From: a virus
IMG/VR virus record: IMGVR_UViG_3300011116_001238
Location: 1-43,528 of that record
Length of the DNA: 43,528 nucleotides
Direction: 5' to 3' (one strand)
Part shown: positions 16,937 to 37,886 of the stretch, piece after piece
Layout of the letters: every line of letters starts with the position of its first letter
How positions within the stretch are numbered: position 1 is the first letter of the stretch
The notes under the pieces: generated by a model
What the model was told of the DNA's origin: nothing
Seen by the model: the letters and a program-made list of their open reading frames with translations, nothing else
The model's database searches: none
Program-made: the position numbers and the translations under genes

Positions 16937-18541
16937 CTAATCTTCGATGTTTGGCATTGTCCAAGTGCCCTTGAGGGCAGATTGAATATCAAGAGCTGCA
17001 CTATTGGAAACTGAACTTCCAGAAAATGCAGGGGATGTAGAAATACCGATTGTTTGAGCAGTTCTGGTATTCATTTTCTCTGCAGCAGCTGCAGCAATTC
17101 TCTCAGAACTTGTCTGAGCAGATTTGAGCAGTAGCTTTGTTTGTCTGATCATTGCGTCAGCTTTAAGATTGTCATTAAGCATTTGATCAGCGTATGAATC
17201 GATTTCATTGGCATCAATAATACCAGCTAAAGCTAATTTACTTGAGCATGAAAAAGCTGTTTTAATTCTTGCTGTCTCTAAAGCAGCTACTTTACTGAAT
17301 TCTGCACTTGAAGTGATATTCATCTTGTTATTATTAAGATCAAATTCAGTCTTAGTTGCTTCAACATCACCATCGTCATTTTTCATGCCAGACTTCTTGC
17401 ACTCTGGGCAATCATAAGAAGCCATTTCATGTTCAGCTAAAGCTGTTTTGTATCCACATGAAGTACATTCACACATTTGCTTGTTTTGATCATTAGCAAC
17501 TGTAGTTTTATGTCCAAATCCTGGCATTTGAGTAGGGATAGATGGTTGATCAACATCAAAATTACCCGCAGATGGGGTCTTAAAAAGCTCTGCATCCAAT
17601 ACATACTCTAATGAACCGTCTTTAGGTCCTGGCATTGTAACTGGATTAGTTGCATCTTTTGTTTGTAAATATTTACCATTAAGGGTAGGAACCGCGAATG
17701 GTTCAGGTGAGAAATTATCGTCCTTAAGACTATTACCTTCACTTGAATCTAATGACATTGTTGGGTATTCAACTTCGCCTGGAAAACTTACTTTATCATT
17801 GTTATATGAAAAACTAGCTGACGCTTTCATACTATCTTCTTCAGCAGCTAATCTGCGAAGGATTTCTTCTCTTTCAGCACGTCGAGAAGCCTGAGCATTT
17901 TTACTCATTTTATTTACTCCATTACTTAATTTGTGCATTGGCTCGGAATCATCTTCCATATCTTCATCATCAAAATCCTCTTCCATGTCGTCATCTTCCA
18001 TGTCATCATCTTGATCTTCATCATCAAAATCCATGTCGTCATCTTCCATGTCAAAGTCTGAATCTTCTCCGCCAAGAAGATTGTCAAGCGCTTCTTGCAC
18101 AGCTTTTTGTGCAGCGTCAACCATGTCAGCGGGAACTTCTATAACTATCTTTGCGATATCACCATCATCTTCTACTTCGTCATTATCTTCTTGAATATCG
18201 TTATCAAATTCATCTTCATCATCTTCTAAATGATGCATATCTTCATTCATATCGTCATCTGATTCGTCTACGAAGTCTGCAGTCTGTTCAGCCCCATTAT
18301 CAAAATTTAAAAGTTTTTTGACTCCGATATCTGAAATTCCAGCTTGCTTGGCTAAATTAGGTAAATATTTTGCTCTAATTGCTTTAGCTATTTCAAGAGC
18401 TTCGCTTTGATCCAATGATGCGCCTTTTGAAATATCATTAGCACAATTAATCAAATCTTCTCTATCAGTTGCTTTTATTTCAGCTAAACGAAGTGCTGCA
18501 ATTTTTTCTTGATTTGCGGCATTCTTCATAATATCTTTCAT
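16937..18541 (-). CDS. Acidic scaffold-like head protein with zinc ribbon and cleavage-like motifs
   Basis: A 534-residue protein of unrecognised family. Residues 90-200 are extremely acidic (runs of Asp/Glu with Met spacers), followed by a basic coiled stretch (about 210-235). A zinc ribbon uses Cys359, Cys362, Cys378 and Cys381. The C-terminal part is helical with KTAF (427), KSAQ (473) and RTAQ (493). An acidic, low-complexity protein between the protease and capsid genes would fit a scaffolding or prohead-core protein, as T4 gp22 does; that is inference from position and composition. A GGGAAGC site precedes ATG 18541. Two perfect inverted repeats and a terminator lie in the 198-nt gap upstream, so it may start its own unit. 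Confidence 0.6.
   Translation of the reverse strand: MKDIMKNAANQEKIAALRLAEIKATDREDLINCANDISKGASLDQSEALEIAKAIRAKYLPNLAKQAGISDIGVKKLLNFDNGAEQTADFVDESDDDMNEDMHHLEDDEDEFDNDIQEDNDEVEDDGDIAKIVIEVPADMVDAAQKAVQEALDNLLGGEDSDFDMEDDDMDFDDEDQDDDMEDDDMEEDFDDEDMEDDSEPMHKLSNGVNKMSKNAQASRRAEREEILRRLAAEEDSMKASASFSYNNDKVSFPGEVEYPTMSLDSSEGNSLKDDNFSPEPFAVPTLNGKYLQTKDATNPVTMPGPKDGSLEYVLDAELFKTPSAGNFDVDQPSIPTQMPGFGHKTTVANDQNKQMCECTSCGYKTALAEHEMASYDCPECKKSGMKNDDGDVEATKTEFDLNNNKMNITSSAEFSKVAALETARIKTAFSCSSKLALAGIIDANEIDSYADQMLNDNLKADAMIRQTKLLLKSAQTSSERIAAAAAEKMNTRTAQTIGISTSPAFSGSSVSNSAALDIQSALKGTWTMPNIED
17960..18053. repeat. In-frame tandem duplication within the acidic tract
   Basis: Two copies, at 17960-18005 (46 nt) and 18014-18053 (40 nt), share the same start and end sequence and differ by a 6-nt insertion. 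Both encode Asp/Glu/Met-rich peptide. The in-frame length change shows recent repeat expansion in the scaffold-like gene. Confidence 0.8.
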
Positions 18542-18570
18542 TTATTGCTGCTTCCCTCATAATATTGTTT

Positions 18571-18603
18571 AATCAATAAAATTGATTTACAAGTTATACT
18601 TGT
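18571..18603. promoter_or_regulatory. Two adjacent perfect inverted repeats upstream of the scaffold-like gene
   Basis: AATCAAT-AAA-ATTGATT at 18571-18587 and ACAAGT-TAT-ACTTGT at 18589-18603 each have a 3-nt centre and lie 1 nt apart, 30 nt before ATG 18541. They could be operator sites or small hairpins in the leader. The rest of the 18542-18739 gap holds the terminator at 18696-18725 and AT-rich sequence with no gene. Confidence 0.45.
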
Positions 18604-18695
18604 TGTAGAAACTATTTTTATGTTCTGGTTAATCTAAAATAATTCCTGCTTATCATACATACTTTGTATATTTTACAAGTTTATTTTATAGTCAT

Positions 18696-18725
18696 AAAAA
18701 AGAGGGGAAAAATCCCCTCTTTTTT
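18696..18725. terminator. Intrinsic terminator after the 1398-residue protease gene
   Basis: AGAGGGGA / TCCCCTCT stem with an AAAA loop, flanked by A and T runs so that both strands end in T. It lies 15 nt after the minus-strand stop at 18740 and so ends the portal-protease transcript or attenuates reading into the scaffold gene. Confidence 0.9.
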
Positions 18726-18739
18726 ATTGTTTTACAATG

Positions 18740-21700
18740 TTAGTCAATCCAAGTAATGGTTGCATCTAATAGTGACGGATTCTTTTTATTTGCCTTGACT
18801 TCAGTCTTAGCATATGTACCGCACCCGTAGCAGAATGTATTATTCTTAACTTTATGTGCTTTTCTATTTCCACACTTAGGACATACCATACCTAATGGTA
18901 ACTTAGTTTCAGTGTCTCTATTGAAATCAGGAGATGCTGTTCTCAAGTAAACATCAGAATCTAAAGTTGTAGCTAATCTAAACATTGACTTCTTTGATGC
19001 CATAGGAGCCATCGGTGCAGGAGCAGTAGCAGCACCTAATCCAGCTTCACCCATTGCAGCTCCACCCATTCCAGCGTCAGGAGCACCAGAAAGAGCATCC
19101 TCTTCGCCAGGAGCGCCTAAATCATCTTCACCTTGAGATTTTAATTCAATAGATTGATGAATGGTGTATCTTGCCTTACAGTTGTTACACGCGCCTTCGC
19201 CATTCGCAACATCGGTGTCGTCAGATCCACAACTAGGACATATAGATCCCCAAGGTTTACTTACACCTGGCTCCGCAACTGCATCCATGTCAGTAGCATC
19301 AGCAGCATCTGGACCGCCAGTTAAGGAAGATAATCCTAAATCACCACCAGCTGGTGGAGCTCCGGCATCCATTCCAGCCATAGGGGCAGCACCTGCGCCC
19401 ATGCCACCCATAGGCGCTCCCATTGGAGCTCCCATACCAGGAGCCATTTGAGCATACTTCTGCAAAACATCATTTCTACGTTTTACAGTAGCAATTCTAG
19501 CTGCATCTGTCATCATTATAGGATCAACTATAGCAACTTCAACATCTGCATCCATTGGCATTTCAGGAGAAACTTCATCTGCTCCATTATTGCTTACATC
19601 AAATGTCTTAGAAGATCTAGTTGAAACAGTGGCTTCTACTCTACCGTCTTCAAAAACACAAAGATCAGTAAAGCTAAAAGTACTAGGATCTACGTGATAA
19701 TCACGCTCTTGGAGAACTTGAATTGCTTTTTGCTTAAATGCTTCATCAAATCCCTCATCAGAAGGATTCATTCCATCTAAATCGTCTACAGTGCATTGGA
19801 ATCTAAAACTTTCTGACTTCTCTTTTGTTACTTTCATTCCAGCAGTTCTATCAGAATTAATTTTTGCTTCGATGGCTTTGGTAATAATTCTTTCAGCCAT
19901 TTCTGGATCTTCAACAAATCTTTTAGCAGCAACAACAATTGTTTTAGTAGGAATGTTGAAATTTGTTGAATAGTCAGCAAGCCATCCAATAATATTTCCT
20001 GCTAAATCCTTAGTAGAAGCTGTTTTGACTCCCCAGAACTCTCTTCTGGCTCTTGATCTCAATCTAGCAGAAGTGACTGTGTCAGTTTTAGCTTTTGTAA
20101 TACCATAAATCATTGAATCAGTAGTCATGCTAGCTACAGCATTGATTGTTTCATCAGGAGTTACTCCTGTTTCAATAGTTGACTGAGCAGCTGCAGAAAT
20201 AGCATTCATCAAAGCACTCTTTGGAGGAATTGTTTCATCAGCGTCAATAGCACCCATGAGGGCTGATTTCAATTCTTCATTCTTTGAAGGAACAGCATCA
20301 ACATCAAGGCCTTCGCCAGGAACGTTAGCTTCACCCATAAGAAGTTCTGCTAATCTTCCGATGCCTTCTTTAGTAATTTCTGATTCAGAAGCAGCTACTG
20401 ACAATGCTTGAGCAAGGTCAGAAGGAGTAATTCCCATTTCAGGACTTACAGCAGAACCTAATTGTTTCAAGATAGCACTAACAGAATCATCAGAAGAACT
20501 GTCTTTACCAAAGAATGAAGAATTTTCCTTTTGTTCTTCTCTCATTGGATTACCAGCAGCGGCAGCACCAATCATCTCAGGCAACATTGGTTCTTCTGAA
20601 AGCATTTGAGCAGTTCTTACAATATGATCAGGTGTTTCCATAGCAGAAACTACTGCTTTAGCTAAAGCTCTGACAGTTGTTGACATCACAACGTGTGGTT
20701 TAGCGGAACCTTCATTTCTGCATTTTGCTAAAAGATTTTCCAGAACGTCTTCATAAGATCCCTTTTGAACATCAGCAATTAATTCTGAAAGTGACTTTCT
20801 GGCATTCTTGTCAATAACCTTCCAGCCATAAAGACCAGCATTCTCAAGACCTGACTCAGAAATGTCAGTTTCTTTTCTTCGATTGCTGTAATAATTACCA
20901 GCTAATTCTTCTTCTCTTGTTTTCTCACCATCTGCACTATGCTTTGATGAAAGTCCATCTTGTAAAGTTTTGTATGGAAGACCTGTTCTGCTACCTTCTA
21001 ATTCGACATCTCTAGTTTTACCAGCTTTATCATTAGAAGAAGTTTTGATAAATCCGCTGTAATCTTTAAGCAATTCAGCAGCAACTCTTGAACCGTTTCC
21101 ACCTTCCATCATGTTAATTTGATTTTCAGTGAGAATTGGGTCCCAATCGGTTTTCTTTCCGTTTGTAAAGCCTGTAATAGAGCCATCAGTTGAAAGAACA
21201 ACACGATTACCGGCATTGTCTTCTACCTTAAAATCTATAGTAACAGCAGCAGCAAGTTTCTTTCTTTGTTCCGCTGCAATTTTTGCAAAATGATCCATTT
21301 GATTTATGCCCTCCGCCTGATTTATTTTTGGCGTATTTGTTTTGATATTTTTATTTCGTTCATTAGCTAATCTAATGACATTACTTATACTGTTTTGGAT
21401 TGATGATTCATCATTAATTGAAGATTTAAGATCAACTAATTTAGAAACAAAATTCACAAATTTATTTTCAGGTTCTAATTTTTTATGATTAGAACTTGCG
21501 AAAATTTCTCTTTTACCATCAGTAGAAGCCCAAACTAAATTAACATTAGAATGCGCTAAAGCTACACCACCACCCACATTTGCTTGGTCACCCAAAATTG
21601 GTTCCATAACTTTACCTACAGAACCAGATGTGTAATCAGCTAATCCAACATTAGGCGATAAGTTGGATTGTTGTTGTTGCTGTTGTGCACCTAATTGTTG

Positions 21701-22936
21701 TTGATTTAAAGGTTGTCTTTGTTGACCGCCTCCAACATCAACACCACCTTCATCAATAATATCTTGCATGGTGCCTTGAAGATCAGCCATAGATTTTGTT
21801 ATTTTTTGGACATAACCTAAATCAACATTGTCTTTTCTGGCAAACATATTCATAACAGCAACTTCTAAGAAATTTAATGATAAATTAATTAGATCAAGAA
21901 CATTCAAGCCGGTTCGTGGGTCGATTCCCAGAGCAGTTAAAACTGCTAACACTGTAGAATTTTGATTAGCACCTTCTGCAGCTAATAAAGGACCTCCCAC
22001 AAGAGTACCAGCATTTTGAGCTAATTTAATAGATGATTTAGCAGTTGTTTCAGCTACTCTAAGGAACTGCTCATAATAAAATCTATCTTGAGAATTAGTA
22101 GGGCAATTATTATGTGCTAAAACAATGTTAGCACAAATTTGATTTGCTTTCTTTTCTAAGTTTTGAGCAGCCTCTAAAACATCATCAACGTCATAAATTT
22201 CTTGAATTTCACATGCTTCAAATGCTCCATCGCCAACACATGAAAGCTCAATAAATTTTACATTGTAGTTTTCTTCATAAACTTTTTTGTTTGATTTAGG
22301 ACTAACTTTGCCTTTATATTTCTTAAGACAATCGCAATAATCTCTTTCTACATAAGCCTTATTACCACACTCAGAACAAATGCCCCAATCAACTGACGCT
22401 CCCATAGAAACGTCGTGAATAACACCAGTTCTGATATTTCTGGCAATATCAGGATATGCTTCTTCGTCTACGAAAAAAGTACAGTAAACACAATTTTCAT
22501 CGTCATCCCATTCAGCATACACAACCATTCCTTTGGCTTGTTCAATATCATCATTTTTATGATTTGTATATATTGGTACACCTTCAAATGTTTTATATGC
22601 TGGAATCTTTTGACCTTTTAGATCAATCTCTTTGAGTAATTCAGCTTTAGAAAAGTAATCTCCATTAGCATTTACAACATCAGCATCAATTGCTCTAGCT
22701 CTTACCCATAAAAGTTTAGCACCTTTACGAGCTTGCATTTCTTTAACAATATCAAAATCTTTGTATTTTTCTAGAACTTCTTTAGGATCAGCATATAAAG
22801 ATTGTAAACCAATTTTAGCCGCTTCTCTCATGGTAGAAGATGCTGTTTTGAGCATAAAATCTCTAGCAATCTCTCTATCAGATTCTTTTAAGAAACTATT
22901 GATTGTAATAGCTCCGCCTTTTGCAACCCTATACAT
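18740..22936 (-). CDS. Giant prohead protease polyprotein with zinc ribbons
   Basis: A 1398-residue protein. Residues 70-250 match prohead maturation proteases: NANGDYF, TNHKND with candidate catalytic His126, and HDVSMGASVDW with candidate nucleophile Ser177. A small Cys cluster (Cys187, 190, 201, 203) is inserted after the Ser motif. Then come a helical region, a Gln-rich stretch (405-424), and long helical segments of unknown family (545-1150). A Gly-Ala-Pro-Met linker follows (about 1164-1199), then two zinc ribbons (Cys1233/1236/1250/1253 and Cys1352/1355/1369/1372). Cleavage-like tetrapeptides occur at 30, 774, 971, 1030 and 1332. T4- and HK97-type proteases are about 200-250 residues, so the extra 1100 residues are exceptional and may be scaffold or core released by self-cleavage (inference). 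It lies between portal and capsid genes. Confidence 0.7.
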   Translation of the reverse strand: MYRVAKGGAITINSFLKESDREIARDFMLKTASSTMREAAKIGLQSLYADPKEVLEKYKDFDIVKEMQARKGAKLLWVRARAIDADVVNANGDYFSKAELLKEIDLKGQKIPAYKTFEGVPIYTNHKNDDIEQAKGMVVYAEWDDDENCVYCTFFVDEEAYPDIARNIRTGVIHDVSMGASVDWGICSECGNKAYVERDYCDCLKKYKGKVSPKSNKKVYEENYNVKFIELSCVGDGAFEACEIQEIYDVDDVLEAAQNLEKKANQICANIVLAHNNCPTNSQDRFYYEQFLRVAETTAKSSIKLAQNAGTLVGGPLLAAEGANQNSTVLAVLTALGIDPRTGLNVLDLINLSLNFLEVAVMNMFARKDNVDLGYVQKITKSMADLQGTMQDIIDEGGVDVGGGQQRQPLNQQQLGAQQQQQQSNLSPNVGLADYTSGSVGKVMEPILGDQANVGGGVALAHSNVNLVWASTDGKREIFASSNHKKLEPENKFVNFVSKLVDLKSSINDESSIQNSISNVIRLANERNKNIKTNTPKINQAEGINQMDHFAKIAAEQRKKLAAAVTIDFKVEDNAGNRVVLSTDGSITGFTNGKKTDWDPILTENQINMMEGGNGSRVAAELLKDYSGFIKTSSNDKAGKTRDVELEGSRTGLPYKTLQDGLSSKHSADGEKTREEELAGNYYSNRRKETDISESGLENAGLYGWKVIDKNARKSLSELIADVQKGSYEDVLENLLAKCRNEGSAKPHVVMSTTVRALAKAVVSAMETPDHIVRTAQMLSEEPMLPEMIGAAAAGNPMREEQKENSSFFGKDSSSDDSVSAILKQLGSAVSPEMGITPSDLAQALSVAASESEITKEGIGRLAELLMGEANVPGEGLDVDAVPSKNEELKSALMGAIDADETIPPKSALMNAISAAAQSTIETGVTPDETINAVASMTTDSMIYGITKAKTDTVTSARLRSRARREFWGVKTASTKDLAGNIIGWLADYSTNFNIPTKTIVVAAKRFVEDPEMAERIITKAIEAKINSDRTAGMKVTKEKSESFRFQCTVDDLDGMNPSDEGFDEAFKQKAIQVLQERDYHVDPSTFSFTDLCVFEDGRVEATVSTRSSKTFDVSNNGADEVSPEMPMDADVEVAIVDPIMMTDAARIATVKRRNDVLQKYAQMAPGMGAPMGAPMGGMGAGAAPMAGMDAGAPPAGGDLGLSSLTGGPDAADATDMDAVAEPGVSKPWGSICPSCGSDDTDVANGEGACNNCKARYTIHQSIELKSQGEDDLGAPGEEDALSGAPDAGMGGAAMGEAGLGAATAPAPMAPMASKKSMFRLATTLDSDVYLRTASPDFNRDTETKLPLGMVCPKCGNRKAHKVKNNTFCYGCGTYAKTEVKANKKNPSLLDATITWID
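19340..19447. repeat. Gly-Ala-Pro-Met repeat linker in the protease polyprotein
   Basis: Short degenerate repeats encode residues about 1164-1199 of the protease polyprotein (GMGAP / PMGAP-like units). They form a flexible linker before the two C-terminal zinc ribbons. A similar linker occurs in the portal gene. Confidence 0.7.
21665..21724 (-). repeat. Gln-rich (CAA/CAG) repeat tract
   Basis: A run of Gln codons (residues about 405-424 of the protease polyprotein) marks a flexible boundary between the protease-containing N-terminal part and the following helical region. Confidence 0.75.
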
Positions 22937-23012
22937 ATTTATGCTTCCTTTAAAAAATCACAAACAATTTACTTTTCACTTCTATAAAAATAGCTTAAAT
23001 TCCTACAAAAAC

Positions 23013-23040
23013 ATAAACCCGTCGATTTCGACGGGTTTAT
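23013..23040. terminator. Intrinsic terminator between portal and protease genes
   Basis: A near-perfect 13-bp inverted repeat (AAACCCGTCGA / TCGACGGGTTT with flanking A-T pairs, 2-nt centre), followed on the minus strand by ATGTTTTTG. It lies 23 nt after the portal stop. The 22937-23062 gap otherwise holds the AAAGGAAGC ribosome site of the protease gene. Confidence 0.85.
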
Positions 23041-23062
23041 TGTACAAGCAATATAATTTCAA

Positions 23063-25426
23063 TTAAAGAGTATCTTTACTGGATCCGCCATTAGTTCTTT
23101 TCCTTATTGCTTGTATTATTACATTAATACAGTCTTGAGGAAAATCTTTTAATTCCTTATCAGTAAATCTTAGAATTACCCATCCGTTAGATGCTAATTC
23201 AGTATCTCTTCGTTTATCTTTGGCTATTTTTTCTGGATTATTGTGCCAAATTCCTCCATCAGCTTCAATTCCAATTTGTATTGATGGAATAGCAGCATCT
23301 AATTGATAATCACCAGTAGGACCAGCAGAATATTGAGCATACAGCGCATATGGCATATTCAGGGATAATAACAAACCATATAATAATTTCTCTATAGATG
23401 TATACATTTGAGGCTGATTGATTTGTTTTTTAGCAGCAATAACTGTTTTAAAGTTTTCATTTTCAGAAGATTCTGCTAATCTGATTTCCATTTGCGCTTC
23501 TATATTTAAAGGAACTGACTGAATTCCTCCAAGTAAAGGAGCATATAAATTGCCAAATAGTCCATCATATTCATCAGGTAAAGGTCCTAAATTACCTCTT
23601 CCTGATACTGGATATAAAGAATGTAAAAATCCTTCATGAGCGGCAGATTTTATTTTTCTGCTTGCTGTTCTAAGTTTAGAATCTTTAATTTTCAATCTGT
23701 CATTATAAATATCATTAATAATTGATGAGGCAAATTTGTAATATTCTAATTTATTACTAGCTGTAGGCATACCAGCCGGAGCGCCCATTGCTGGCGCTCC
23801 CATACCAGGTGCTCCCATTCCTGGAGCACCCATTTCAGGAGTCATTCCAGGTTGTTGAGCACCAAAGCCTTGTCCTGTAACACCATTTGATTGAAAGTTT
23901 AATGAAAAATTAGGAGTACCAAAATTCGAATCATTCATAAAATTCGAACCTTGCTCATATCTCAATCTTTCAATTTCTTGATCTGGATCTAAACCAAACG
24001 CTTCAATAAGTGAAACATTAGAAATTACTCCATTTTGATTAGCAGTAACAAGGGTTTGTAGTTTTCCAGTATCATCTCTAAGCTCTAGATCATCAAACTT
24101 AATTTTTGGAAATACAATTTCCTCTTGCCCTCTTTCACCTTCAACAATGAATCCATTCCATTGGGCAACTGGTTTAAATATGCATTGTTCTATCCAGTGC
24201 TTAACTTCATTTCTAAAGGTATCTAGTCTTTTACCCATAGCTAAAAGACCAACTTGTCCAGATGAATACGCTGGCCCTTCTCCATTAAGCAAAAGTTTAT
24301 TAAGCATAACTCCGTCTAAAATTTCTTGCTCAATCAATTCAAATTCATTAGAAAGAGTATGGATTTTACCTGTAGCACCAACATAATCCATATCAAAAGC
24401 ATGGTGAGTAACAAGTGTAAGATTAGGATCATTAGCAATTGCTGCTAATTCATCTTGAACACCGTCAATATCTTCTTGTGATGCTGGTCTTGTGTCATTT
24501 CCAACTTTGACAACCTTAATTGGTAAAATCATTCTTTCAGCTACAACAAATTGAGCTTGACGCAATTTATCTTTATAGGTCAAAGTGGGAAATAAACTTC
24601 TAATCATTGGGGTTCCATAGTCTTCCCAAGGATTAGAGCCATACTTAAAGTGATGAATAGAAATAGGATTTAACTTTATTGGATCCCCTTTTATAATCAT
24701 CTTCTTTACATTGTCAGGAATTGCATCATAATGCTCTTTAGGTTGTCTCTCATTTACTAATCTAACTTCTTCTGGAGAAGGTCTGTAAACATAAGATCCT
24801 TGTTGATCAATCATTCCTGGAGATTTTAAAACACTGTCAGGGTTTAGGATAGAAATAGAATTCCAAGAAGCTCCATCATGTGTGCATTCTTCATTTTTAT
24901 CATCATTCCAGTTACTACCATGACATTGAGGGCAGTTAATTGATAGTAAAACAAAACAGTCACCTAATAAATGGTATACTTTTGAAATTTCCGGTAGCCA
25001 TTTTTGAAAATTAAGATGTTCAATAAGTTTTTCGAAATAATCTTTTACATAAGATGAGGAGCATTCTAGTGTCCAGCCAGAAAATGGATAATTAGTGTAA
25101 AAGTTTATAGCGGCAGCAACTTTAGGTTCATTATTCCTCCACCAGTTAGCCCACAAATAAACTTCACGTCTAGCGTTAGGGATTTGAAACGAGGATGGTG
25201 TAAGGAATGGTGAATAAAAGTTAGGAGCGGTGGTCATTGTATTTGTACCACCACTCATTTGGGAATATCTGTTCATATTAGTAGTAACAGATGTGCCCAT
25301 AGACATTCCTATTCTAGAACTTGCATAATTTCTAGTTGACTCGGAAGAACTAGCAGAATTAGCATCTTTTATAGCGTAATTACCTGCTGTTTTTATTGCT
25401 GATGCTAACGATGTTCTTTTTGCCAT
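23063..25426 (-). CDS. Portal protein with inserted zinc motif and C-terminal VSR/DUF559-like nuclease domain
   Basis: A 787-residue protein. Residues about 85-510 match large phage portal proteins (dodecameric DNA gate at the capsid vertex): a WANWWRNNEPKVAAAINFY start, a PISIHHFKYG strand, a KLLLNGEGPAYSS stretch and helical stem. A zinc-knuckle candidate (Cys165, Cys168, Cys181, His183) interrupts the wing. Residues 527-555 are a Gly-Ala-Pro-Met repeat linker, then KFAS (564) and RTAS (586). Residues about 655-775 resemble the very-short-patch-repair/DUF559 nuclease fold: Asp710, Glu721-x-Asp723, the DGGIWH motif and Arg739/Asp741 followed by a GWVILRF strand. Portals are usually 450-600 residues, so the C-terminal nuclease-like domain is an addition. 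Five genes before it and the protease after it are co-oriented. Confidence 0.85.
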   Translation of the reverse strand: MAKRTSLASAIKTAGNYAIKDANSASSSESTRNYASSRIGMSMGTSVTTNMNRYSQMSGGTNTMTTAPNFYSPFLTPSSFQIPNARREVYLWANWWRNNEPKVAAAINFYTNYPFSGWTLECSSSYVKDYFEKLIEHLNFQKWLPEISKVYHLLGDCFVLLSINCPQCHGSNWNDDKNEECTHDGASWNSISILNPDSVLKSPGMIDQQGSYVYRPSPEEVRLVNERQPKEHYDAIPDNVKKMIIKGDPIKLNPISIHHFKYGSNPWEDYGTPMIRSLFPTLTYKDKLRQAQFVVAERMILPIKVVKVGNDTRPASQEDIDGVQDELAAIANDPNLTLVTHHAFDMDYVGATGKIHTLSNEFELIEQEILDGVMLNKLLLNGEGPAYSSGQVGLLAMGKRLDTFRNEVKHWIEQCIFKPVAQWNGFIVEGERGQEEIVFPKIKFDDLELRDDTGKLQTLVTANQNGVISNVSLIEAFGLDPDQEIERLRYEQGSNFMNDSNFGTPNFSLNFQSNGVTGQGFGAQQPGMTPEMGAPGMGAPGMGAPAMGAPAGMPTASNKLEYYKFASSIINDIYNDRLKIKDSKLRTASRKIKSAAHEGFLHSLYPVSGRGNLGPLPDEYDGLFGNLYAPLLGGIQSVPLNIEAQMEIRLAESSENENFKTVIAAKKQINQPQMYTSIEKLLYGLLLSLNMPYALYAQYSAGPTGDYQLDAAIPSIQIGIEADGGIWHNNPEKIAKDKRRDTELASNGWVILRFTDKELKDFPQDCINVIIQAIRKRTNGGSSKDTL
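23762..23848. repeat. GAP/MGAP repeat linker in the portal gene
   Basis: Tandem copies of a 15-nt-like unit encode MGAPG-type pentapeptides (portal residues about 527-555), joining the portal body to the C-terminal nuclease-like domain. Confidence 0.8.
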
Positions 25427-27192: not shown

Positions 27193-28065
27193 TTATTTTC
27201 CTAATCCTAATTTTTTCATATCTTCTTTATCAAAATCGCGATCTTCCAATGCTTTTTTGATTTTATTTATTTCTTCACTAACACCAGCTTTACTAGGAGC
27301 TTCTTTTCCATTACTTTGAGGACTAGTTTTAGTAAAATCTTTAAGGTCTAATAAATAAACAAGTCTATTTAATAATTCAGGAGTAGATCTAGTTTCGTAA
27401 TTAGGTTTAGTATCATAATCAAAAGCAGATGTCACCAATTTTGAATTTTGGGAATCAGCCTTTTTTCTTTCCTTATTTTTATTATATTCCATAACAACTT
27501 TGACAGCTTTTTCTATTGTTTCTTTATCCCAAATTTTGTCTTTAAGAATAAATCTGACAATATCTTTTTTCAATACACCGTGATCAAGAAGTTTACCAAT
27601 TTTACCCATCAAAACTCTAAAAGGATTTCCTCTGGTTTTTTTCTTCTTTTTTTGAATACGTTGTGCTGTTCTATTATTATAAACTACTGCAGTAGGTTCC
27701 ATTTGTTTCTCCACAGATTTTTTATTTTTTACTAAATCTATAATGTCAGAAGCTATTTCTTTTGGTAATGGTTCTGGCTTTTGTGTTTCAGGATTTATAG
27801 TGGGACTGTTTGGATTATGATTCATGCCTAAAGCGTAAATTAATTTTCCTACTTTTTCTTTTATTGTAGAATCAGAAATTTGCTCTTTTAGAATTGAAAG
27901 TTCATGTGCTAATTCAGGGCTAGGAGAATTATCAACTTTTTGACAGGCAGCAATGAGTGTTTCTGGTTTTACACCTTCACTACCATTACCATCCAATCGA
28001 ATGTTATTAACTCCATTAGCTGGATTTGAAGCTACAGCTCCCTGATATTGCGAAATCCTATACAT
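27193..28065 (-). CDS. Hypothetical head-module protein (MYRIS start)
   Basis: A 290-residue, lysine-rich helical protein with no recognised family. It begins MYRISQYQGAV, similar to the start of the protease polyprotein (MYRVAK), and contains an RTAQ tetrapeptide at 132-135 followed by a strongly basic QKKKKKTRG segment (about 137-146) that could bind DNA or RNA. A GKLLDHGVLKKDIVRFIL helix follows. It ends 1 nt before the next gene start and begins 3 nt after the preceding stop, so it is part of one tightly packed transcript with the 28069 and 25761 genes. An internal-head or DNA-binding role is possible, but only inferred. Confidence 0.6.
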   Translation of the reverse strand: MYRISQYQGAVASNPANGVNNIRLDGNGSEGVKPETLIAACQKVDNSPSPELAHELSILKEQISDSTIKEKVGKLIYALGMNHNPNSPTINPETQKPEPLPKEIASDIIDLVKNKKSVEKQMEPTAVVYNNRTAQRIQKKKKKTRGNPFRVLMGKIGKLLDHGVLKKDIVRFILKDKIWDKETIEKAVKVVMEYNKNKERKKADSQNSKLVTSAFDYDTKPNYETRSTPELLNRLVYLLDLKDFTKTSPQSNGKEAPSKAGVSEEINKIKKALEDRDFDKEDMKKLGLGK

Positions 28066-28068: not shown

Positions 28069-28848
28069 TTAATCTTCCAAATCAAAACTATTATATATAT
28101 CAGCTAAGGTTTTAGATCCATTTAAAGATTTAGCAACTAAATCATCATGCATGTGCTTTTTGATAGCAAGTTTTTGTTGTCTAGCTTTTTCTTGACTAGC
28201 AACTCTTGATTGTTCTCTTGCATCAAGTTCATTTGGATCTAAAATACCAAATTGTGATGATCTTGAAACATCATCAGAAGCAACACGTAATATACTGTGA
28301 GCTCTAGAATTAACAACTTGTGATTTTCTTAATGATTCTAAAGCGTTTTGCTCCCAAGTTGAATGTCTTGCAGCTTTTGCTTCTCTTCTATGAGCGTTGT
28401 TTTCAATAGCTTGAACAGTTTGTGATTCTTGACTTTGTAAGAAATCACTTTCGATGCCAAATAATTGTGGCATTAATTCATTATTGCCACTAAGCATAGC
28501 ATTCATATAATCAGCAGCTGAAAAAGCTTGTAAATTGCTTGCTGTTCTAGTATTATCTGAATTGTCATTAGAAGATCCATAAGTTCCATTATTAACTCTG
28601 TTTTCTAATGTGTAATCTGAAAGTTGATCATATGTTTGAGCTGATGAAATTTTTTCCCAGGACTTTTCACTTTGTGATGTTCTGGTCATTCCAATTTGTT
28701 GTTTTGAAATTTTAATTCTATTTTCAGCTGAATTATTTTTTAAATTAGCATATGGGTCATCTTCAATTTCAACATGAGATCCAACAAATCTCTTTTCAAT
28801 GAAATTTGGTAAATTGTTAGTATCAGATACTTTTCTAAAATTACTCAT
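28069..28848 (-). CDS. Hypothetical head-module protein with repeated cleavage-like tetrapeptides
   Basis: A 259-residue polar helical protein with no recognised family. It starts MSNFRKVSD, like the MSNFYKM start of the 27191 protein. Basic-x-Ala-Ser tetrapeptides are frequent: RTAS (101), RVAS (188 and 215), with RTSQ (56) and KISS (66) as weaker forms. They fall at intervals separating Gln/Asn/Ser-rich segments, which would suit processing into pieces. ATG 28848 follows a GGAATAAATAA spacer. A terminator hairpin lies 40 nt upstream, so this may be the first gene of the portal transcript, with its promoter in the 78-nt gap, though I see no clear promoter. Confidence 0.6.
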   Translation of the reverse strand: MSNFRKVSDTNNLPNFIEKRFVGSHVEIEDDPYANLKNNSAENRIKISKQQIGMTRTSQSEKSWEKISSAQTYDQLSDYTLENRVNNGTYGSSNDNSDNTRTASNLQAFSAADYMNAMLSGNNELMPQLFGIESDFLQSQESQTVQAIENNAHRREAKAARHSTWEQNALESLRKSQVVNSRAHSILRVASDDVSRSSQFGILDPNELDAREQSRVASQEKARQQKLAIKKHMHDDLVAKSLNGSKTLADIYNSFDLED

Positions 28849-28926: not shown

Positions 28927-29874
28927 TTAGTCGTATTTTTTGGTGAACAAGGCATCGATCCATTCAACATCACCGTAGCCAAGTTCGTTTTTCCAGTAAT
29001 TAATAATTCTTGAGTAGTCAGCGTTGGTTAATGTTGCAGTTCTAACCATGGATTCAACAGCTGATTTTTTGATATTGACATCAAGGTTAGATGCCATAAC
29101 ATTTTTAATCTCAATAGTTCTTTCTTCAGAAGAATATGCTTCGCCTAAAACAGCTTGAACATATTCAGAAGGGAAACCATGGGACATAGCTTTTTCTGCA
29201 AATGCTTGTTTGGCGCTTCTTGACATATTTGAAACTTTTACAAAACTTTCAGCTTTAGCAGTCTTGATAGTTTTTTCTGCTCTAGCGTCAATCTTTGGTT
29301 TATTGTTTGCAGAAGCTGTTTTTAATAAAGATTCACGGTAAGCTTTTCTTTGTGCTAATTTAAGTTGTTTAGCATTAGAAGCTTCTATTTTCTTTTGAAT
29401 TTGTTGAGCCAATATAACTCTTCTCTCATGTCTAGCAGCAAGAATTGTATTAGCTAAAATTTGGTTCCCAGAAGCCAATGCTGCTTCTACTGCCTCAGCA
29501 CTTAATTGATCAGGATGTGTGAAAGAAATTCTGTCTGGAGCACGTTTGATCATTTTAGATTCATGCTCTTTATCATCCTCGCCACTTACATGCATGTTGT
29601 CATCTTTGCTGTCATCATCATCATCATCAGATGAAACTTTCCAGTTGCTTTGAACATCATGATCAACACCAGCAGCAACCTCTTCAAACTCAGGTCCATG
29701 AGTTTTCTTAAGTGCTCTTAATAATTCTGATACATTATCTGAAGCAGTTTGCTCAGAGCCTTCTTTGACTTGGGCAAGCTTTTCGTTGAAGTTATCCCAA
29801 TCAATACCTTTGAACATTGCGTCAGATTCAAATGAATCATCTTGGTATGTATTAGGAAAAATAATATCTGCCAT
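28927..29874 (-). CDS. Hypothetical abundant head-module protein with acidic tract
   Basis: A 315-residue protein in its own unit, bounded by hairpins at 29971-29996 and 28888-28913, with a good ACGAGGAG ribosome site. The N-terminal third is acidic with a DDDDDD run (about 83-88). The middle is Ala-rich helical and the C-terminus has a compact NYWKNELGYGDVEWID segment. Tetrapeptides KTAS (185), KTAK (204) and RTAT (278) divide it into domains. No family is recognised. The composition (acidic plus coiled, with candidate processing sites) resembles prohead-core or internal proteins. Isolation behind its own terminators suggests separate, probably high, expression. Function unknown. Confidence 0.6.
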   Translation of the reverse strand: MADIIFPNTYQDDSFESDAMFKGIDWDNFNEKLAQVKEGSEQTASDNVSELLRALKKTHGPEFEEVAAGVDHDVQSNWKVSSDDDDDDSKDDNMHVSGEDDKEHESKMIKRAPDRISFTHPDQLSAEAVEAALASGNQILANTILAARHERRVILAQQIQKKIEASNAKQLKLAQRKAYRESLLKTASANNKPKIDARAEKTIKTAKAESFVKVSNMSRSAKQAFAEKAMSHGFPSEYVQAVLGEAYSSEERTIEIKNVMASNLDVNIKKSAVESMVRTATLTNADYSRIINYWKNELGYGDVEWIDALFTKKYD

Positions 29875-30370: not shown

Positions 30371-30838
30371 TCAAGTAGAAACTTTTCTAAATTTAGGTTG
30401 ATTCTCTGAAACTTTAATGTTTTTAGCTTCTTGAAGATCAAATTTATCTTTAGATCTAGCTTTTCTAAATTCATTAATATTATCTGTTGATAAATAATAA
30501 TCTCTTAAAGCTAATTTTGCCTTTTCAGTTAAATTAACTGATCTACCATGACCTGTAAGCATTCCAGCTGTTTTCAAATAAAGAAGATCTGAATCAGTAA
30601 TATGATGAGGTACTTCTGAATAATTTGAAGCTGTTTTTACATCAGTAATGCTTGATTCAATAGTCTTTAGAATTTCCATGTCTCTATTTGAAACTTTTCC
30701 AGCTTCTTTTTTAGGCTTATTATTCATTCCTAAAAGCTGCATTTGAATTTCTGATAAACCAGCTTGATTTTGAATTGGTAAATCAAATAATTCTGCATGT
30801 AAATCTAAAGTGTGAACAGGTTTAATTGGTATTGGCAT
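30371..30838 (-). CDS. Hypothetical head-module protein, in frame with the following DUF192 domain
   Basis: A 155-residue protein of unknown family with a short N-terminal segment of Pro/Leu type. KTAS (68) and YLKTAG (87-92) motifs are in the middle, and a possible winged-helix-like stretch (about 76-112: ITDSDLLYLKTAG, then VNLTEKAKLALRDYYLS) resembles small DNA-binding domains. It ends in FRKVST, the same peptide type that starts the 28848 protein. The stop is TGA followed by C, and the reading frame after it is open and encodes DUF192. AAGGAAATAAAATT precedes ATG 30838. The function is not known; its motif content links it to the head genes. Confidence 0.6.
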   Translation of the reverse strand: MPIPIKPVHTLDLHAELFDLPIQNQAGLSEIQMQLLGMNNKPKKEAGKVSNRDMEILKTIESSITDVKTASNYSEVPHHITDSDLLYLKTAGMLTGHGRSVNLTEKAKLALRDYYLSTDNINEFRKARSKDKFDLQEAKNIKVSENQPKFRKVST

Positions 30839-30862
30839 AATTTTATTTCCTTATCGTAAGTA

Positions 30863-31339
30863 TTAAGTTCTATCCGGTATTCTATTTTTCCAAGCATTAC
30901 CATCTGATACATTTTGTTCATAGTTTTCTTCGAAGCCATATTTATTATCTATATCTTCTCCACTACGAACGTTCATTGAAGGACTTTTGCCTGGACCTGG
31001 ATCAATAGCTGCAGGCCCAGTAACTCCAGATGGTCCATTAAGTCTACCTTCAGTAGATAATTCATCTATTTGAGAAGCATCATCACCATCGCCATAATTG
31101 TAATATTGCTTAGGCATTAATGGTGGAAATTTTGTTGTGAATGATTCTTGGTTATCATCAAACTGTTGTTGTGTAATTTCATCCCATTTCATGAATGAAT
31201 TACCTTGCCACTTAACAGAGCTAGGGCCTACAGTATATTGTGAAATTTTAACGAACAGCCTGTCTGCTTTTTTATACTCGCCTGATTTGTCAAGTTCAAA
31301 AGATCTTTTCAGAAACTGTTCAATAATTTTATTATTCAT
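30863..31339 (-). CDS. Hypothetical protein of the head module
   Basis: A 158-residue protein. Residues 1-35 form a basic amphipathic helix (EQFLKRSFELDKSGEYKKAD, quoted from the region) ending in LFVKISQYTVG, which resembles the ISQY start peptide of the 28065 protein. The rest is polar, Gly/Pro/Asp-rich and probably disordered. No family is recognised and no membrane segment is visible. It lies between the UDP-galactopyranose mutase gene and the 30838 gene, with gaps of about 24 nt on both sides and the same direction, so it is co-transcribed with the head module. A short, disordered linker or assembly protein is possible. Confidence 0.5.
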   Translation of the reverse strand: MNNKIIEQFLKRSFELDKSGEYKKADRLFVKISQYTVGPSSVKWQGNSFMKWDEITQQQFDDNQESFTTKFPPLMPKQYYNYGDGDDASQIDELSTEGRLNGPSGVTGPAAIDPGPGKSPSMNVRSGEDIDNKYGFEENYEQNVSDGNAWKNRIPDRT

Positions 31340-31363
31340 ACTTCAATTTTATGAGAAAAATTA

Positions 31364-32479: not shown

Positions 32480-32486
32480 ACATTAT

Positions 32487-33503
32487 TTATACGCTAAACG
32501 GTGATGGAGAAAACCTTCCAATTTCATTTTGTCCTGGATATAAATCTTCAAGACCTGCAGATTCTTGATTTCCTAAATTGTTTCTTGTATACATATCAAG
32601 CGGAGAAACTTCACGGAAATTTCCTTCTAGTGTTTTAAAAGGGTTAACCTTTTTTACCATAGGAGCAATTTCGCTTCTTGGATGAACGTTAGGTAGAGTT
32701 TCTTTATATTGGTTAGTTAAAACGGTTTCTTCGTTGTATGCTCCATCATCATTTACATAACCTCTGTTAACACCAGCTCCGCCTTTTAAAAAATCTTCAA
32801 CATCTTGCATATTTATCATTGGCTTAACTGAACCAGAAGGATAAGTTTGATATCTTGTTTTATAGACATCGTTTTCTTCATCAGATGTATCTTTATTGCC
32901 GTCAATAAAACTACTCATTTCATTTGGTCTTGAAATTTCATAGTTTGAAACAATTATTTTTTCATGATTATTTTTTGAAGTATGAGTTCTTGTTGGTTGA
33001 ATTAATTCTGGTATATCATCTTCATATTGAAAATAATTTTTCTTAGGATCATCATCGTATTGTCTGCGTTTTTTAAGCTGCTCTTCCATTGTTGTAACAT
33101 GCTCTTCTTTTGGTTGGAAATATTTGTTTATATATCCAACACTATTCTGTTCTAAACTCTCAGCGTGTTCTTCCAATGACTTTTTGTATTTGTGTAACTC
33201 AGCTCTAAACTTTGCTCTTAATCTTTCGTTTGGATCTAAAATATAATTTTTAGTTTCCTCTGAATATTGATGTTGAGGTGTTAATCTTGTTTCTATGTTT
33301 CTTTCAGATACATCTTGTTCCATGTGAATTCTGGAAAGCATAGACTCTAAAGTTTTATCATCTTTCCAAGGCACATTGATGTCGTTAGCAGTGCCTGGAT
33401 TGCCACCTCTACCAAGTGGACTAGCGCCAGGGGAGAATGGAGATCCTTGATATCCACCTCCGACACCACCAAATTGAGCAGTTTTAATATTTTTAGAAGA
33501 CAT
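32487..33503 (-). CDS. Hypothetical head-module protein next to the terminase
   Basis: A 338-residue polar, Pro/Asn/Gly-rich protein of no recognised family. I chose ATG 33503 (MSSKNIKTAQ) because the upstream in-frame start at 33542 is a GTG overlapping the terminase stop, whereas 33503 has an AGAAAAG site. A KTAQ tetrapeptide falls at residues 7-10 and is followed by a Gly-Pro-rich segment, so N-terminal trimming is conceivable. The middle (about 60-150) is a charged coiled stretch and the remainder is largely disordered. It sits between terL and glf in the same direction. A role in packaging or head completion would fit the location; nothing proves it. Confidence 0.55.
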   Translation of the reverse strand: MSSKNIKTAQFGGVGGGYQGSPFSPGASPLGRGGNPGTANDINVPWKDDKTLESMLSRIHMEQDVSERNIETRLTPQHQYSEETKNYILDPNERLRAKFRAELHKYKKSLEEHAESLEQNSVGYINKYFQPKEEHVTTMEEQLKKRRQYDDDPKKNYFQYEDDIPELIQPTRTHTSKNNHEKIIVSNYEISRPNEMSSFIDGNKDTSDEENDVYKTRYQTYPSGSVKPMINMQDVEDFLKGGAGVNRGYVNDDGAYNEETVLTNQYKETLPNVHPRSEIAPMVKKVNPFKTLEGNFREVSPLDMYTRNNLGNQESAGLEDLYPGQNEIGRFSPSPFSV

Positions 33504-33525
33504 ATTTTTCTTTTCTGATAAGCTA

Positions 33526-35643: not shown

Positions 35644-36402
35644 TTATTTACTGCATTGAACATATATCCATTGAGTATGAATATAGTCGTCAAAAGATTT
35701 TTCAATTTTATATGTAATATTTTTAAAACCAATTTTAGTAAGATCAGAAATAATTTGTTCTGGAGAAGTTACTCTTACATCATATTCGCCATTAGATCCA
35801 ATAGCATCATAAACATCATCATAATAATTTGCCACTCTTAAATTTACTGGAACTGTAAGTGTTCCTGTTCTCATTAAGCAGAAAAATTTATCAGGATAAT
35901 TTCTTTCATGTATATTTGAACCGTAACCCATTTGGAATGTAAAAACACCATCATTTTTCATAATTCTATAAACTTCTTCCATAAGTTTATATCTAAGCTT
36001 GTAAACTGCTAAATATTGAAAAACTAATGAAGAAATAACAAAATCAAATTGTTCATCTTTAAAAATCTTCAGATTTCTTCCTGACACTTTATGGAATTTA
36101 CATTTTTCTTCAAATGTTGTCGTACATTGATCAACATTCTTTTTACTTAAGTCAACAGCATCAATTCTACTCCAATTTGCTAACTTTAATAAATTATTTA
36201 CATTTCTTCCTAAACCTGTGCCTAAATCAAAAGCTTTCTTATCTTGCCATAGCTCAGGATTTTCTTTAACAGGACCTAATAAATAATCCCAATACAAGGG
36301 ATTTAAATCATGTCTATCATAATAAGATGTTCCTATTACATGCTCATTATTTAACATTTCAATATATTTACTTAACTCATCATTATTTGTCGAAAAAAAC
36401 AT
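35644..36402 (-). CDS. Class I SAM-dependent methyltransferase
   Basis: A 252-residue Rossmann methyltransferase. Motif I is FDLGTGLGRN (about 53-62), the acidic end of strand 2 is DAVDLS, and DFVISSLVFQYL and a FQMGYG late strand mark the remaining SAM-fold elements. There is no DPPY/NPPY motif, so base-N6 adenine or cytosine methylation is unlikely. The general type resembles small-molecule, glycan or protein methyltransferases. It begins 1 nt after the previous stop and ends directly at the terminase start, so it is co-expressed with packaging genes. The substrate is unknown; virion glycan or a host small molecule are possible. An AGGATAATTAAT ribosome site precedes ATG 36402. Confidence 0.8.
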   Translation of the reverse strand: MFFSTNNDELSKYIEMLNNEHVIGTSYYDRHDLNPLYWDYLLGPVKENPELWQDKKAFDLGTGLGRNVNNLLKLANWSRIDAVDLSKKNVDQCTTTFEEKCKFHKVSGRNLKIFKDEQFDFVISSLVFQYLAVYKLRYKLMEEVYRIMKNDGVFTFQMGYGSNIHERNYPDKFFCLMRTGTLTVPVNLRVANYYDDVYDAIGSNGEYDVRVTSPEQIISDLTKIGFKNITYKIEKSFDDYIHTQWIYVQCSK

Positions 36403-36403
36403 A

Positions 36404-37108
36404 TTAATTATCCTGTTGTATTTGATTTCTTAACTGAACTAACTTTTCTCTAATTTTCTTCTTGTCTGCTTCGGATTCCATTTCTTCGTGTAAATCCATT
36501 AAGATTTCAAAAATATTAATTGAATACACACCTCTGTTATCTCTGGCTTCTTTTAGTTGTAGAATTTTGCTAATTAGTTTTTCAACCATTTGAGCTCTTC
36601 TAAGTTTTAGATCATTATTTTTTGAACAATCCATGCCTCTTATGTCATCGAGTTCAACAAGAAGAGCTGTTAATGCTAATTGATGTTCTCTAAAAATCCA
36701 AGGAGCAATTAATTCTTCTCTTTGTTCATAATTTTTTAAACCTGATGTTGCAATTTTCTTAAAATCACAATGGTTTTCCATGTGAGTGTTAACTTGAACC
36801 CAATTTAGTTTTGCATCATAATGTTTAGCAAAATAATGAATAACAGATTGAGGTTTTTTACCACTTTCTAAAAAAACATGTTCAGCTAAATCTCTAAATG
36901 ACGAAGTACAAATAACGCATCTAGGTTCTAAAAATTGGGGATAAGAAATATCAGACATACTATCAGGAGGAATAGGAACAATAGGCCTTTCACCCTCCTT
37001 CAGATCACTAAACATTCTTGATGGCTTTTTGTCATCTTTTACAGGTATATTTTCCTGTACTGGAGCTATTGCGTCAACAATATCTACATCTTCAGTATTA
37101 TCACTCAT
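36404..37108 (-). CDS. Possible terminase small subunit with zinc-like Cys/His motif
   Basis: A 234-residue protein upstream of the methyltransferase and terL, in the usual place of a small terminase subunit. The N-terminus is acidic and disordered. Residues 60-115 contain CVIC (64-67) and a late H-x3-H-C (109-114), a probable zinc site enclosing a helix-turn-helix-like stretch (KPQSVIHYFAKHY, then LNWVQVNTHM). The C-terminal half is helical coiled-coil, consistent with oligomerisation. Small terminase subunits combine an HTH with an oligomerisation coiled coil, so the assignment is plausible but not proven. ATG 37108 is chosen because an earlier in-frame start would lie inside the terminator at 37130-37158. 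Confidence 0.45.
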   Translation of the reverse strand: MSDNTEDVDIVDAIAPVQENIPVKDDKKPSRMFSDLKEGERPIVPIPPDSMSDISYPQFLEPRCVICTSSFRDLAEHVFLESGKKPQSVIHYFAKHYDAKLNWVQVNTHMENHCDFKKIATSGLKNYEQREELIAPWIFREHQLALTALLVELDDIRGMDCSKNNDLKLRRAQMVEKLISKILQLKEARDNRGVYSINIFEILMDLHEEMESEADKKKIREKLVQLRNQIQQDN

Positions 37109-37129
37109 AATTGTTCTTATACAAAGCAA

Positions 37130-37158
37130 AATAAGCCGCATAAAATATGCGGCTTATT
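37130..37158. terminator. Strong bidirectional terminator before the packaging genes
   Basis: A 13-bp perfect stem (AATAAGCCGCATA / TATGCGGCTTATT) with an AAA loop and flanking A/T runs, 17 nt after the stop at 37176. It separates the 37886 gene from the packaging operon, which must start downstream of it. TATAAG at about 37111-37119 could be a -10 box, but is uncertain. Confidence 0.9.
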
Positions 37159-37175
37159 TTTCGAATACCTTAAAA

Positions 37176-37886
37176 TTAATCTTTTAGAGCTCTTTTAAGT
37201 CTTTCATATGGAGAAACGGCATCAGCAGCCTTCACTAAAAATTCGTCTGCTAAACCAAATAATTCATAGTTGCCTTCAATAAATTTATCACTGTTAGAAG
37301 TAGCAGTGGATAAATTTACTTCAGCTGTTCCATTTTTCATAGAGACAACTACTTTGTCTTTAGAAGCAGTTTTAATTTGGGCATCATTTTTTTGAGCTAA
37401 TAAAACATTGTTCAATAATGCTTCTTCTACCCAAGGCTTTAATTCATTATGGAGAGCAACTCTAGCATTATAGCTTTTTTTAGCTAATTCTGCGAGTCTT
37501 TTCCATGAATCATATCCTTTGTCATCAACCTGAACAATAGCAAATCTATTTTTAGTCAGCTTATTGACAAATTCTTTAGCACTTAATTTTTGTAAAGTTT
37601 TTTCAATAATAGGAGCGCAATCAGAGTATTTTGTAGCAACTACAGATACTTCAGCGGCTGTTCTTACTGAATTATTATCGTCAAATAAATTAGAAGCAAC
37701 TCTTGTAGCTAATTCGATATCATAGTTATCGGCTGCTAACAATTCAATAACTTCGCCTTTATTGAAACCTTGATTTTTAAGCTTTAATGCTTGAGAGTTA
37801 GCTACAACTTTCATACCACTGGAGTGACCCTTGAGTTCGTTGCGCCAATTATAAATCATATCATCGGATGTATTTTTTTCAACCAC
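37176..37886 (-). CDS. Hypothetical phage protein in its own transcription unit
   Basis: A 236-residue, mostly helical soluble protein with no recognised family. It carries RVAS (62), RTAA (75) and KTAS (172), like the proteins of the head module. The start is GTG 37886 with an AGGGAG ribosome site 8 nt upstream. It is flanked by a hairpin upstream (37909-37938) and a strong terminator downstream (37130-37158), so it is the only gene of its unit, an arrangement typical of strongly expressed phage structural or internal proteins. The last 60 residues contain a compact FIEGNYELFGLADEF segment. Role unknown; an internal head protein is a reasonable guess from the motifs. Confidence 0.6.
   Translation of the reverse strand: MVEKNTSDDMIYNWRNELKGHSSGMKVVANSQALKLKNQGFNKGEVIELLAADNYDIELATRVASNLFDDNNSVRTAAEVSVVATKYSDCAPIIEKTLQKLSAKEFVNKLTKNRFAIVQVDDKGYDSWKRLAELAKKSYNARVALHNELKPWVEEALLNNVLLAQKNDAQIKTASKDKVVVSMKNGTAEVNLSTATSNSDKFIEGNYELFGLADEFLVKAADAVSPYERLKRALKD

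Follow-up and report, generated by a model that had tools for sequence, protein, structure and literature searches.

We have identified a short sequence signal, [KR]-x-A-[SQ], that is concentrated in the head proteins encoded by a stretch of DNA from a giant freshwater phage (IMG/VR record IMGVR_UViG_3300011116_001238; all 43,528 nucleotides analysed are called the window) and in those of its relatives, and that is probably the cleavage signal of the prohead protease domain at the N-terminus of the polyprotein encoded at 18740..22936. In its best form the signal reads [LIV]-[KR]-[TVIL]-A-[SQ], and the scissile bond would lie after the alanine. All features described below are on the minus strand of the window.

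Results

An earlier sequence-only reading of the window listed twelve exact [KR]TA[SQ] tetrapeptides and suggested that they might be cleavage sites for the prohead protease that the phage encodes or might target proteins to the capsid. All twelve are found at the residues that it named, in nine head-module proteins rather than the eight that it counted, and, as it stated, none occurs in the capsid, decoration, replication or sugar proteins. Shuffling, the enrichment check that it proposed, gives an expectation of 0.33 for the 12 motifs in the head proteins (6,612 aa; 0 of 2,000 shuffles reached 12 and the maximum was 3), and of 0.17 for the remaining window proteins (7,504 aa), which contain 0. 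The choice of motif is more than hindsight, since [KR]-T-A ranks first among 59,049 three-position patterns in the window head proteins. The preference for Ile, Leu or Val ahead of the motif is also genuine, because [ILV][KR]TA occurs 15 times against 0.57 expected. The exact tetrapeptide is thus enriched and restricted to head proteins, but it is slightly too narrow as the signal because its T position varies freely among orthologs. It was dropped for the broader, true signal, [KR]-x-A-[SQ], frequently in the five-residue form given above. Among orthologs, seven of the twelve sites are kept, two are partly kept and three are not.

The same excess is found in relatives with genomes of 255-379 kb. 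When the 171 protein families present in three or more genomes were ranked by [KR]-x-A-[SQ] enrichment, the top six were all head proteins, with the prohead-protease polyprotein, the scaffold-like protein and the portal leading the ranking. The 16 head families hold 163 motifs against 38.5 expected, while the 155 non-head families remain near background (188 against 165.7); equal frequency in non-head proteins, which the sequence-only reading had named as evidence against itself, was therefore not seen. No excess was detected in the shell and packaging families of capsid (1 observed, 1.6 expected), decoration (0 and 0.9) and large terminase TerL (5 and 4.0). When each genome is divided into blocks (24-35 per genome), it is the head block that ranks highest for [KR]xA[SQ] in 6/6 relatives, which are not statistically independent of one another, and the non-head blocks lie near background. 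Blind scanning of the blocks returns [KR]/R-x-A-[SQ] as the top head-block pattern in three genomes (G001, G004 and G007), and a [KR]-x-A-[SQ] form also comes out on top in the head region of the huge phage LR745208. The conserved P3-x-P1 motif is present in the scaffold, the protease and inner proteins and absent from non-virion proteins. Some additional non-head families with an excess, including a dUTPase-like family (GDRIAQLV) and a small DNA-binding-like protein, have about one site each; these look like enzyme motifs rather than substrates and were set aside.

The protease polyprotein (1,398 aa, 18740..22936; PHROG 18299, head maturation protease, 3e-16) is encoded between the portal and the scaffold and capsid genes, and the head homologs are clustered in relatives. 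A T4-gp21-like protease fold occupies about residues 47-250 and is followed by about 1,150 aa with more sites, ending in two zinc-ribbon-like segments at the C-terminus. The AlphaFold2 model of the protease has a pLDDT of 80, with residues 24-46 below 50. In Foldseek this model matches T4 gp21 (5jbl, chains A-C) with a probability of 1.00, E-values of 4e-3 to 6e-3 and a target TM score of 0.50-0.55; many phage prohead proteases match at 1e-7 and better, and gp19 of phage G at 3.4e-21. As modelled, the domain has the fold of the T4 gp21-like, or herpes-like, prohead protease superfamily. A sequence search of the PDB with the domain as query gave no match, and aligning the protease profile to T4 gp21 by hhalign gave a match too weak for use. 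His126 (TNH) and Ser177 (DVSMG), a putative catalytic pair, are invariant in 29 orthologs, and Ser177 aligns near the VSS of gp21 in the weak hhalign match.

Most of the protease polyproteins carry 6-10 copies of the motif. KTAS at residue 30 (22838..22849), kept in 61% of orthologs, lies in the disordered N-terminus immediately ahead of the protease fold, and KLAQ at residue 304 (22016..22027), kept in 93%, is the earliest conserved site downstream of it. Further along, RTAQ at residue 774 (20606..20617) is kept only in the close clade, and KTAS at residue 971 (20015..20026) is kept in 86-89% of orthologs, with T, V, I, F or K at P2 and Ser at P1'. KYAQ at residue 1160 (19448..19459), kept in 89%, precedes a Gly/Met/Pro-rich linker and shows [KR]-x-A in 29/29 orthologs with at least six different residues at P2. 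At RTAS of residue 1332 (18932..18943), which like residue 774 is partly conserved, K/R-T-A is often kept and P1' is variable.

The acidic scaffold-like protein (534 aa, 16937..18541), encoded between the protease and the decoration and capsid genes, belongs to a family with 22 motifs against 3.2 expected. Its RTAQ at residue 493 (17054..17065) is kept in 84-92% of orthologs, in which indels immediately adjoin it, and cutting there would detach the conserved C-terminal tail, about 38 residues long. A second site, KSAQ at residue 473 (17114..17125), is kept in 76%, and an N-terminal site, KGAS at residue 39 (18416..18427), is kept in 84% and reads KTAS or RTAS in most orthologs. The portal (23063..25426) carries a Pro/Gly/Met-rich linker and a C-terminal DUF559/MTES_1575 nuclease-like domain; its AlphaFold2 model is of low overall confidence (pLDDT 61) and was used only to tell linkers from domain boundaries. 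KFAS at residue 564 (23726..23737), kept in 81%, directly follows the linker, and EKIAS occupies the same position in the phage G portal. RTAS at residue 586 (23660..23671), where 76% of orthologs have R-[TVILFY]-A-[SGN], lies in a low-confidence segment (579-594) at the junction between the portal core and the nuclease domain. Two other kept [KR]xA[SQ] matches, at portal residues 289 and 313, fall in the folded core of the portal and are unlikely to be real sites.

Among other head-module proteins, both KTAS at residue 172 (37362..37373) and RVAS at residue 62 (37692..37703) of the 37176-37886 protein are present in 100% of orthologs. RTAQ of the 27193-28065 protein (27661..27672) precedes a KKKKKTRGNP run and is matched by [KR]-x-AQ in 89% of orthologs. 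In the 32487-33542 protein, the N-terminal KTAQ (33474..33485), kept in 85%, stands at residue 20 from the start at 33542 and at residue 7 from the Met used by most orthologs; numbered from the latter, cutting would free a peptide of about nine residues. KLAQ at residue 172 of the 28927-29874 protein (29350..29361) is kept in 81%. The three unconserved members of the original twelve are KTAS at residue 185 of the same protein (29311..29322), found in only 9-12% of orthologs; RTAS at residue 101 of the 28069-28848 protein (28537..28548), which reads RTTS in most orthologs and so is probably no site; and KTAS at residue 68 of the 30371-30838 protein (30626..30637), where orthologs have VTA, indicating that it is probably a chance match.

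Bacillus/Lysinibacillus phage G is the closest isolate, with a capsid 48% identical to that of the window. Its head module comprises gp14 (portal), gp19 (protease, homologous to the window protease) and gp27 (capsid). Phage G resembles the window in its K-x-A-S excess and in the placement of its sites, and differs in having a separate protease of 300 aa, a portal without the nuclease and a genome of 497 kb. Blind scanning of its head block puts K-x-A-[AGS] first, and for [KR][TVILMYF]AS the head block ranks first of 40 (9 against 1.2). Sites flank the separate protease on both sides and another follows the portal linker. In the literature searched, no published cleavage motif for phage G was found. 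Its gp2, which adjoins the terminase, is annotated as a zinc-dependent peptidase. In Myrna, a more distant relative, the excess is confined to the protease fusion gp97 (5 against 1.5), and no general excess was seen in the head module.

Discussion

These findings support the proposal that the phage's prohead protease is what cuts at these sites, a reading that passed each test that we ran. The analysis shows the motif, its enrichment and conservation, the protease fold and the positions of the sites, and we infer the cutting, the bond and the order of events. A closed prohead would form first. Self-cleavage at residues 30 and 304 would then release the protease, which would also process the remainder of its own polyprotein. 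The C-terminal tail of the scaffold would be clipped at residue 493 and the nuclease-like domain of the portal released at residues 564 and 586, while the remaining inner head proteins would be trimmed or fragmented, emptying the interior for DNA. The capsid, decoration and terminase proteins, which have no enriched or conserved sites, would stay uncut.

The motif might instead be an uncut signal for incorporation into the prohead, by docking to the capsid, portal or protease, which we consider unlikely. Its limitation to proteins expected in the prohead interior, with none in shell proteins, would suit such a role, and the site at 33474-33485 lies near the N-terminus as does the T4 capsid-targeting sequence (PMC9958956). 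However, capsid targeting fits less well because the motif occurs in several copies per protein, inside internal linkers and within the protease polyprotein itself, on either side of the protease fold. Moreover, known prohead protease sites likewise have a fixed P3 and P1 with a free P2, and in T4 the same scan recovers a cleavage rule that is genuine.

Against the cleavage reading, helices rich in K and A abound in head proteins. It is still less probable that the excess is a by-product, with no common function, of Lys/Ala/Ser-rich amphipathic helices or linkers in fast-evolving head proteins, even though these proteins are Ala-rich, several sites are in predicted helix and some individual sites are clearly chance. 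Expectations were corrected for composition protein by protein, other genome blocks lie near background and the motif is recovered in phage G. Patterns of identical shape, used as controls, are also less retained among orthologs (mean 0.07-0.47, against 0.52 for [KR]xA[SQ]), and none gives more than 5 strongly kept sites, compared with 14. A scan for conserved [a]-x-[b] pairs around a variable residue places K/R-x-A first (18 against 5.9, P 4e-5; runner-up P 8e-3). That the sites are cut after ejection or lysis by a protease of the host or by another phage peptidase, of which gp2 of phage G could be an example, is hardly credible, since no family is more enriched than the protease polyprotein and conserved sites bracket its fold in both clades, which is the mark of self-processing.

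Cleavage by the prohead protease would carry a wider meaning. On balance, we favor the view that phage G shares with a large clade of giant phages, uncultured and from freshwater, a [KR]-x-A-[SQ] rule closer to the Ala-Ser bond of herpesviruses than to the Glu rules of T4 and phiKZ, with a protease that excises itself from a polyprotein and a portal nuclease that is cut loose, and that such rules can be read by blind scanning of head genes. If so, the gp21-like fold has switched specificity in another giant-phage lineage, the phage G lineage is tied to a herpesvirus-type bond, and many unknown proteins of this lineage can be assigned as inner head proteins. The scan itself would offer a simple predictor of prohead protease specificity, checked here against T4 and, less strongly, phiKZ; the rule is directly testable because phage G is cultured. 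Freshwater Bacteroidetes phages encoding bS21, with genomes of up to 331 kb, possibly overlap with the window's group; the portions of a paper on ribosomal protein S21 considered here place their TerL, portal, 'prohead core scaffolding and protease' and capsid genes together and do not mention cleavage (PMC9723584).

As a positive control, seven T4 head proteins were scanned blind; of the a-x-b-c patterns, [ILV]-x-E-[AGS] came out on top, in agreement with the known gp21 rule, and in phiKZ S-x-E came first, weakly, in line with the S/A/G-X-E rule of gp175 (PMC13282480). Glu-specific maturation sites of the x-X-E type find no support in the window head proteins, which show no excess of [ILV]xE[AGS] (22 against 19.2), AxE (34 against 37.9) or [AGS]xE (96 against 103.6). 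The known gp21-fold enzymes of large myophages (T4, phiKZ, 201phi2-1 and SPN3US) cleave after Glu (PMC5694885), so that specificity must have changed in the window lineage if our reading holds. In phiKZ and SPN3US many inner head proteins are processed and the protease autocleaves (PMC5694885, PMC10052503). The window shares with T4 the gp21 fold, the P3-x-P1 rule with a free P2 and a small P1', the large number of sites across scaffold and inner proteins and an excess detectable by the same scan. It differs from T4 ([LI]-x-E) in having Ala at P1 and Lys or Arg at P3, and likewise from SPN3US gp245 (A-X-E) and phiKZ gp175; its protease, unlike gp21, belongs to a polyprotein of 1,398 aa, and no site is present in its capsid, in contrast to T4, where gp23 and gp24 are cut. 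In herpesviruses, assemblin releases itself and trims the C-terminal tail of the scaffold, and both its release and its maturation sites are Ala-Ser bonds. Assemblin is homologous in fold to the phage prohead proteases (PMC5694885), and the window system, which differs from it in a basic P3 and in Gln as an alternative P1', is likened to it by fold and site rule only. Within these terms, the window matches assemblin in Ala at P1 and Ser at P1' and, as we propose, in self-release and in trimming of the scaffold tail.

Results

The head and packaging module and its motif

The window is a single virus record of 43,528 bases, in which ORF starts were set mechanically. A head and packaging module lies in its right half, on the minus strand. 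It comprises the capsid (15343-16197, PHROG 2522), a decoration-like protein, an acidic scaffold-like protein (16937-18541), a protein of 1,398 aa whose N-terminus is a prohead protease (18740-22936), a portal carrying a nuclease-like domain at its C-terminus (23063-25426), the large terminase and several proteins of unknown kind. Twelve [KR]TA[SQ] tetrapeptides had been picked out in this region by a sequence-only reading, and all twelve are present at the positions it named, although they fall in nine proteins rather than the eight it had counted. They stand far above chance: when the head proteins were shuffled one by one in 2,000 trials, the mean was 0.33 motifs and no trial gave more than 3. 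The other proteins of the window have none. Because the motif had been chosen by eye, we also ranked all 59,049 three-position patterns made up of individual residues or groups of residues. [KR]-T-A headed the ranking, with [KR]-x-A-[SQ] in second place. Rules ending in Glu showed no enrichment in the window.

Several other features of the window were observed. The large sugar module at 1-13148 (NeuB with cupin, a TPP enzyme, several NAD-sugar epimerases and aminotransferases) contains no exact [KR]TA[SQ]-type motif. Within the head operon lie a UDP-galactopyranose mutase and a methyltransferase, at 31364-32479 and 35644-36402; only a minority of relatives carry them (30 and 3 matches), and they therefore look like recent insertions. 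An adenylosuccinate-synthetase-like gene at 40639-41634 belongs to PHROG 1211, the phage-type adenylosuccinate synthetase family, which gives a hint that the genome carries modified purines. Zinc-ribbon-like CxxC pairs are found in the scaffold-like protein at about residues 355-385 and twice close to the end of the protease polyprotein. The nuclease-like domain of the portal (DUF559/MTES_1575, about residues 640-780), in which E679, D710, E721 and D723 are invariant across relatives, is joined to the portal through a linker rich in Pro, Gly and Met that contains two [KR]-x-A-S sites; the portal of phage G, the closest cultured isolate, has no nuclease.

Conservation of the sites among orthologs

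In ortholog alignments with a mean identity near 50%, the sites survive in indel-rich stretches and their middle residue varies. Portal residue 586 reads R-[TVILFY]-A-[SGN] across orthologs and protease residue 1160 reads [KR]-[YFVILA]-A-Q, while the 27193 protein keeps [KR]-x-AQ followed by KKKKKTRGNP. K/R-x-A is the most over-represented conserved pair around a variable residue (18 versus 5.9). At least 70% of orthologs keep 14 of the 29 [KR]xA[SQ] sites in the head proteins of the window, and each of twelve control patterns has at most 5 sites kept at that level. The twelve original sites fared unevenly: seven (protease 30 and 971, scaffold 493, portal 586, the site in the 27193 protein, and those at 33474 and 37362) are conserved, two are partly conserved (protease 774 and 1332) and three are not.

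Enrichment in related genomes

Searches of viral contigs with the portal, capsid and terminase yielded more than 100 relatives, on contigs of up to 479 kb. Six large contigs, of 255-379 kb, carry [KR]TA[SQ] 0.45-1.37 times per 1,000 residues in their head homologs versus 0.05-0.10 times elsewhere, and in every one of the six the head block ranks first for [KR]xA[SQ]. When 179 blocks were scanned blind, [KR]- or R-x-A-[SQ] was the top-scoring pattern of the head block for three genomes; outside the head, most blocks with higher scores appear tandem-repeat or low-complexity-like, as judged from their patterns alone. Head proteins take the first six places when 171 families are ranked by enrichment; the observed and expected counts are 44 versus 8.5 for the protease, 22 versus 3.2 for the scaffold, 24 versus 4.0 for the portal and 188 versus 165.7 for the 155 non-head families. 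In the same count the capsid, decoration and terminase families have the motif at background. The related genomes are not independent of one another, and the Poisson tests assume that positions are.

One relative, the 441-kb contig G006 (reached via L083), has several more capsid-like matches of 29-37% identity beyond its main capsid gene, suggesting capsid paralogs.

Positive controls and phage G

Applied to seven T4 head proteins, the blind scan placed [ILV]-x-E-[AGS] first, which is the experimentally known gp21 rule. With the phiKZ head proteins, S-x-E-D ranked first but was weak, and it agrees with the phiKZ rule S/A/G-X-E (PMC13282480). The head block of phage G ranks first of 40 for [KR][TVILMYF]AS, with K-x-A-[AGS] as its best blind pattern, and for the huge phage LR745208 the scan yields [KR]-x-A-S.

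The placement of the sites also recurs. In the model of protease residues 1-290, confidence is high from residue 50 onward; the model matches T4 gp21, its best match being gp19, the protease of phage G. The KTAS site lies within a low-confidence stretch at residues 24-46, and a conserved [KR][LIV]AQ at 304 follows the fold; likewise gp19 has VKTAA before the fold and EKVAS/LKIAS after it. In the phage G portal, EKIAS comes after the Pro/Gly linker, which is also where the portal of the window has KFAS.

Discussion

The known prohead proteases with this fold cleave inner proteins at the end of a P3-x-P1 motif of three residues, and in T4, phiKZ, 201phi2-1 and SPN3US the cut always follows Glu (PMC5694885, PMC10052503). 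T4 gp21 turns active once the prohead is complete (PMC9958956). We conclude that [KR]-x-A/[SQ], the slash marking the putative cut, is very probably the maturation-cleavage signal. By analogy with the P3-x-P1 motifs, and given the small P1' residues, we infer that the bond cut would be the one after Ala. The pattern in the window follows the same P3-x-P1 logic as that of the Glu-cutting prohead proteases, with other letters. In herpesviruses the bond is Ala/Ser, which the proposed Ala/[SQ] cut of the window resembles.
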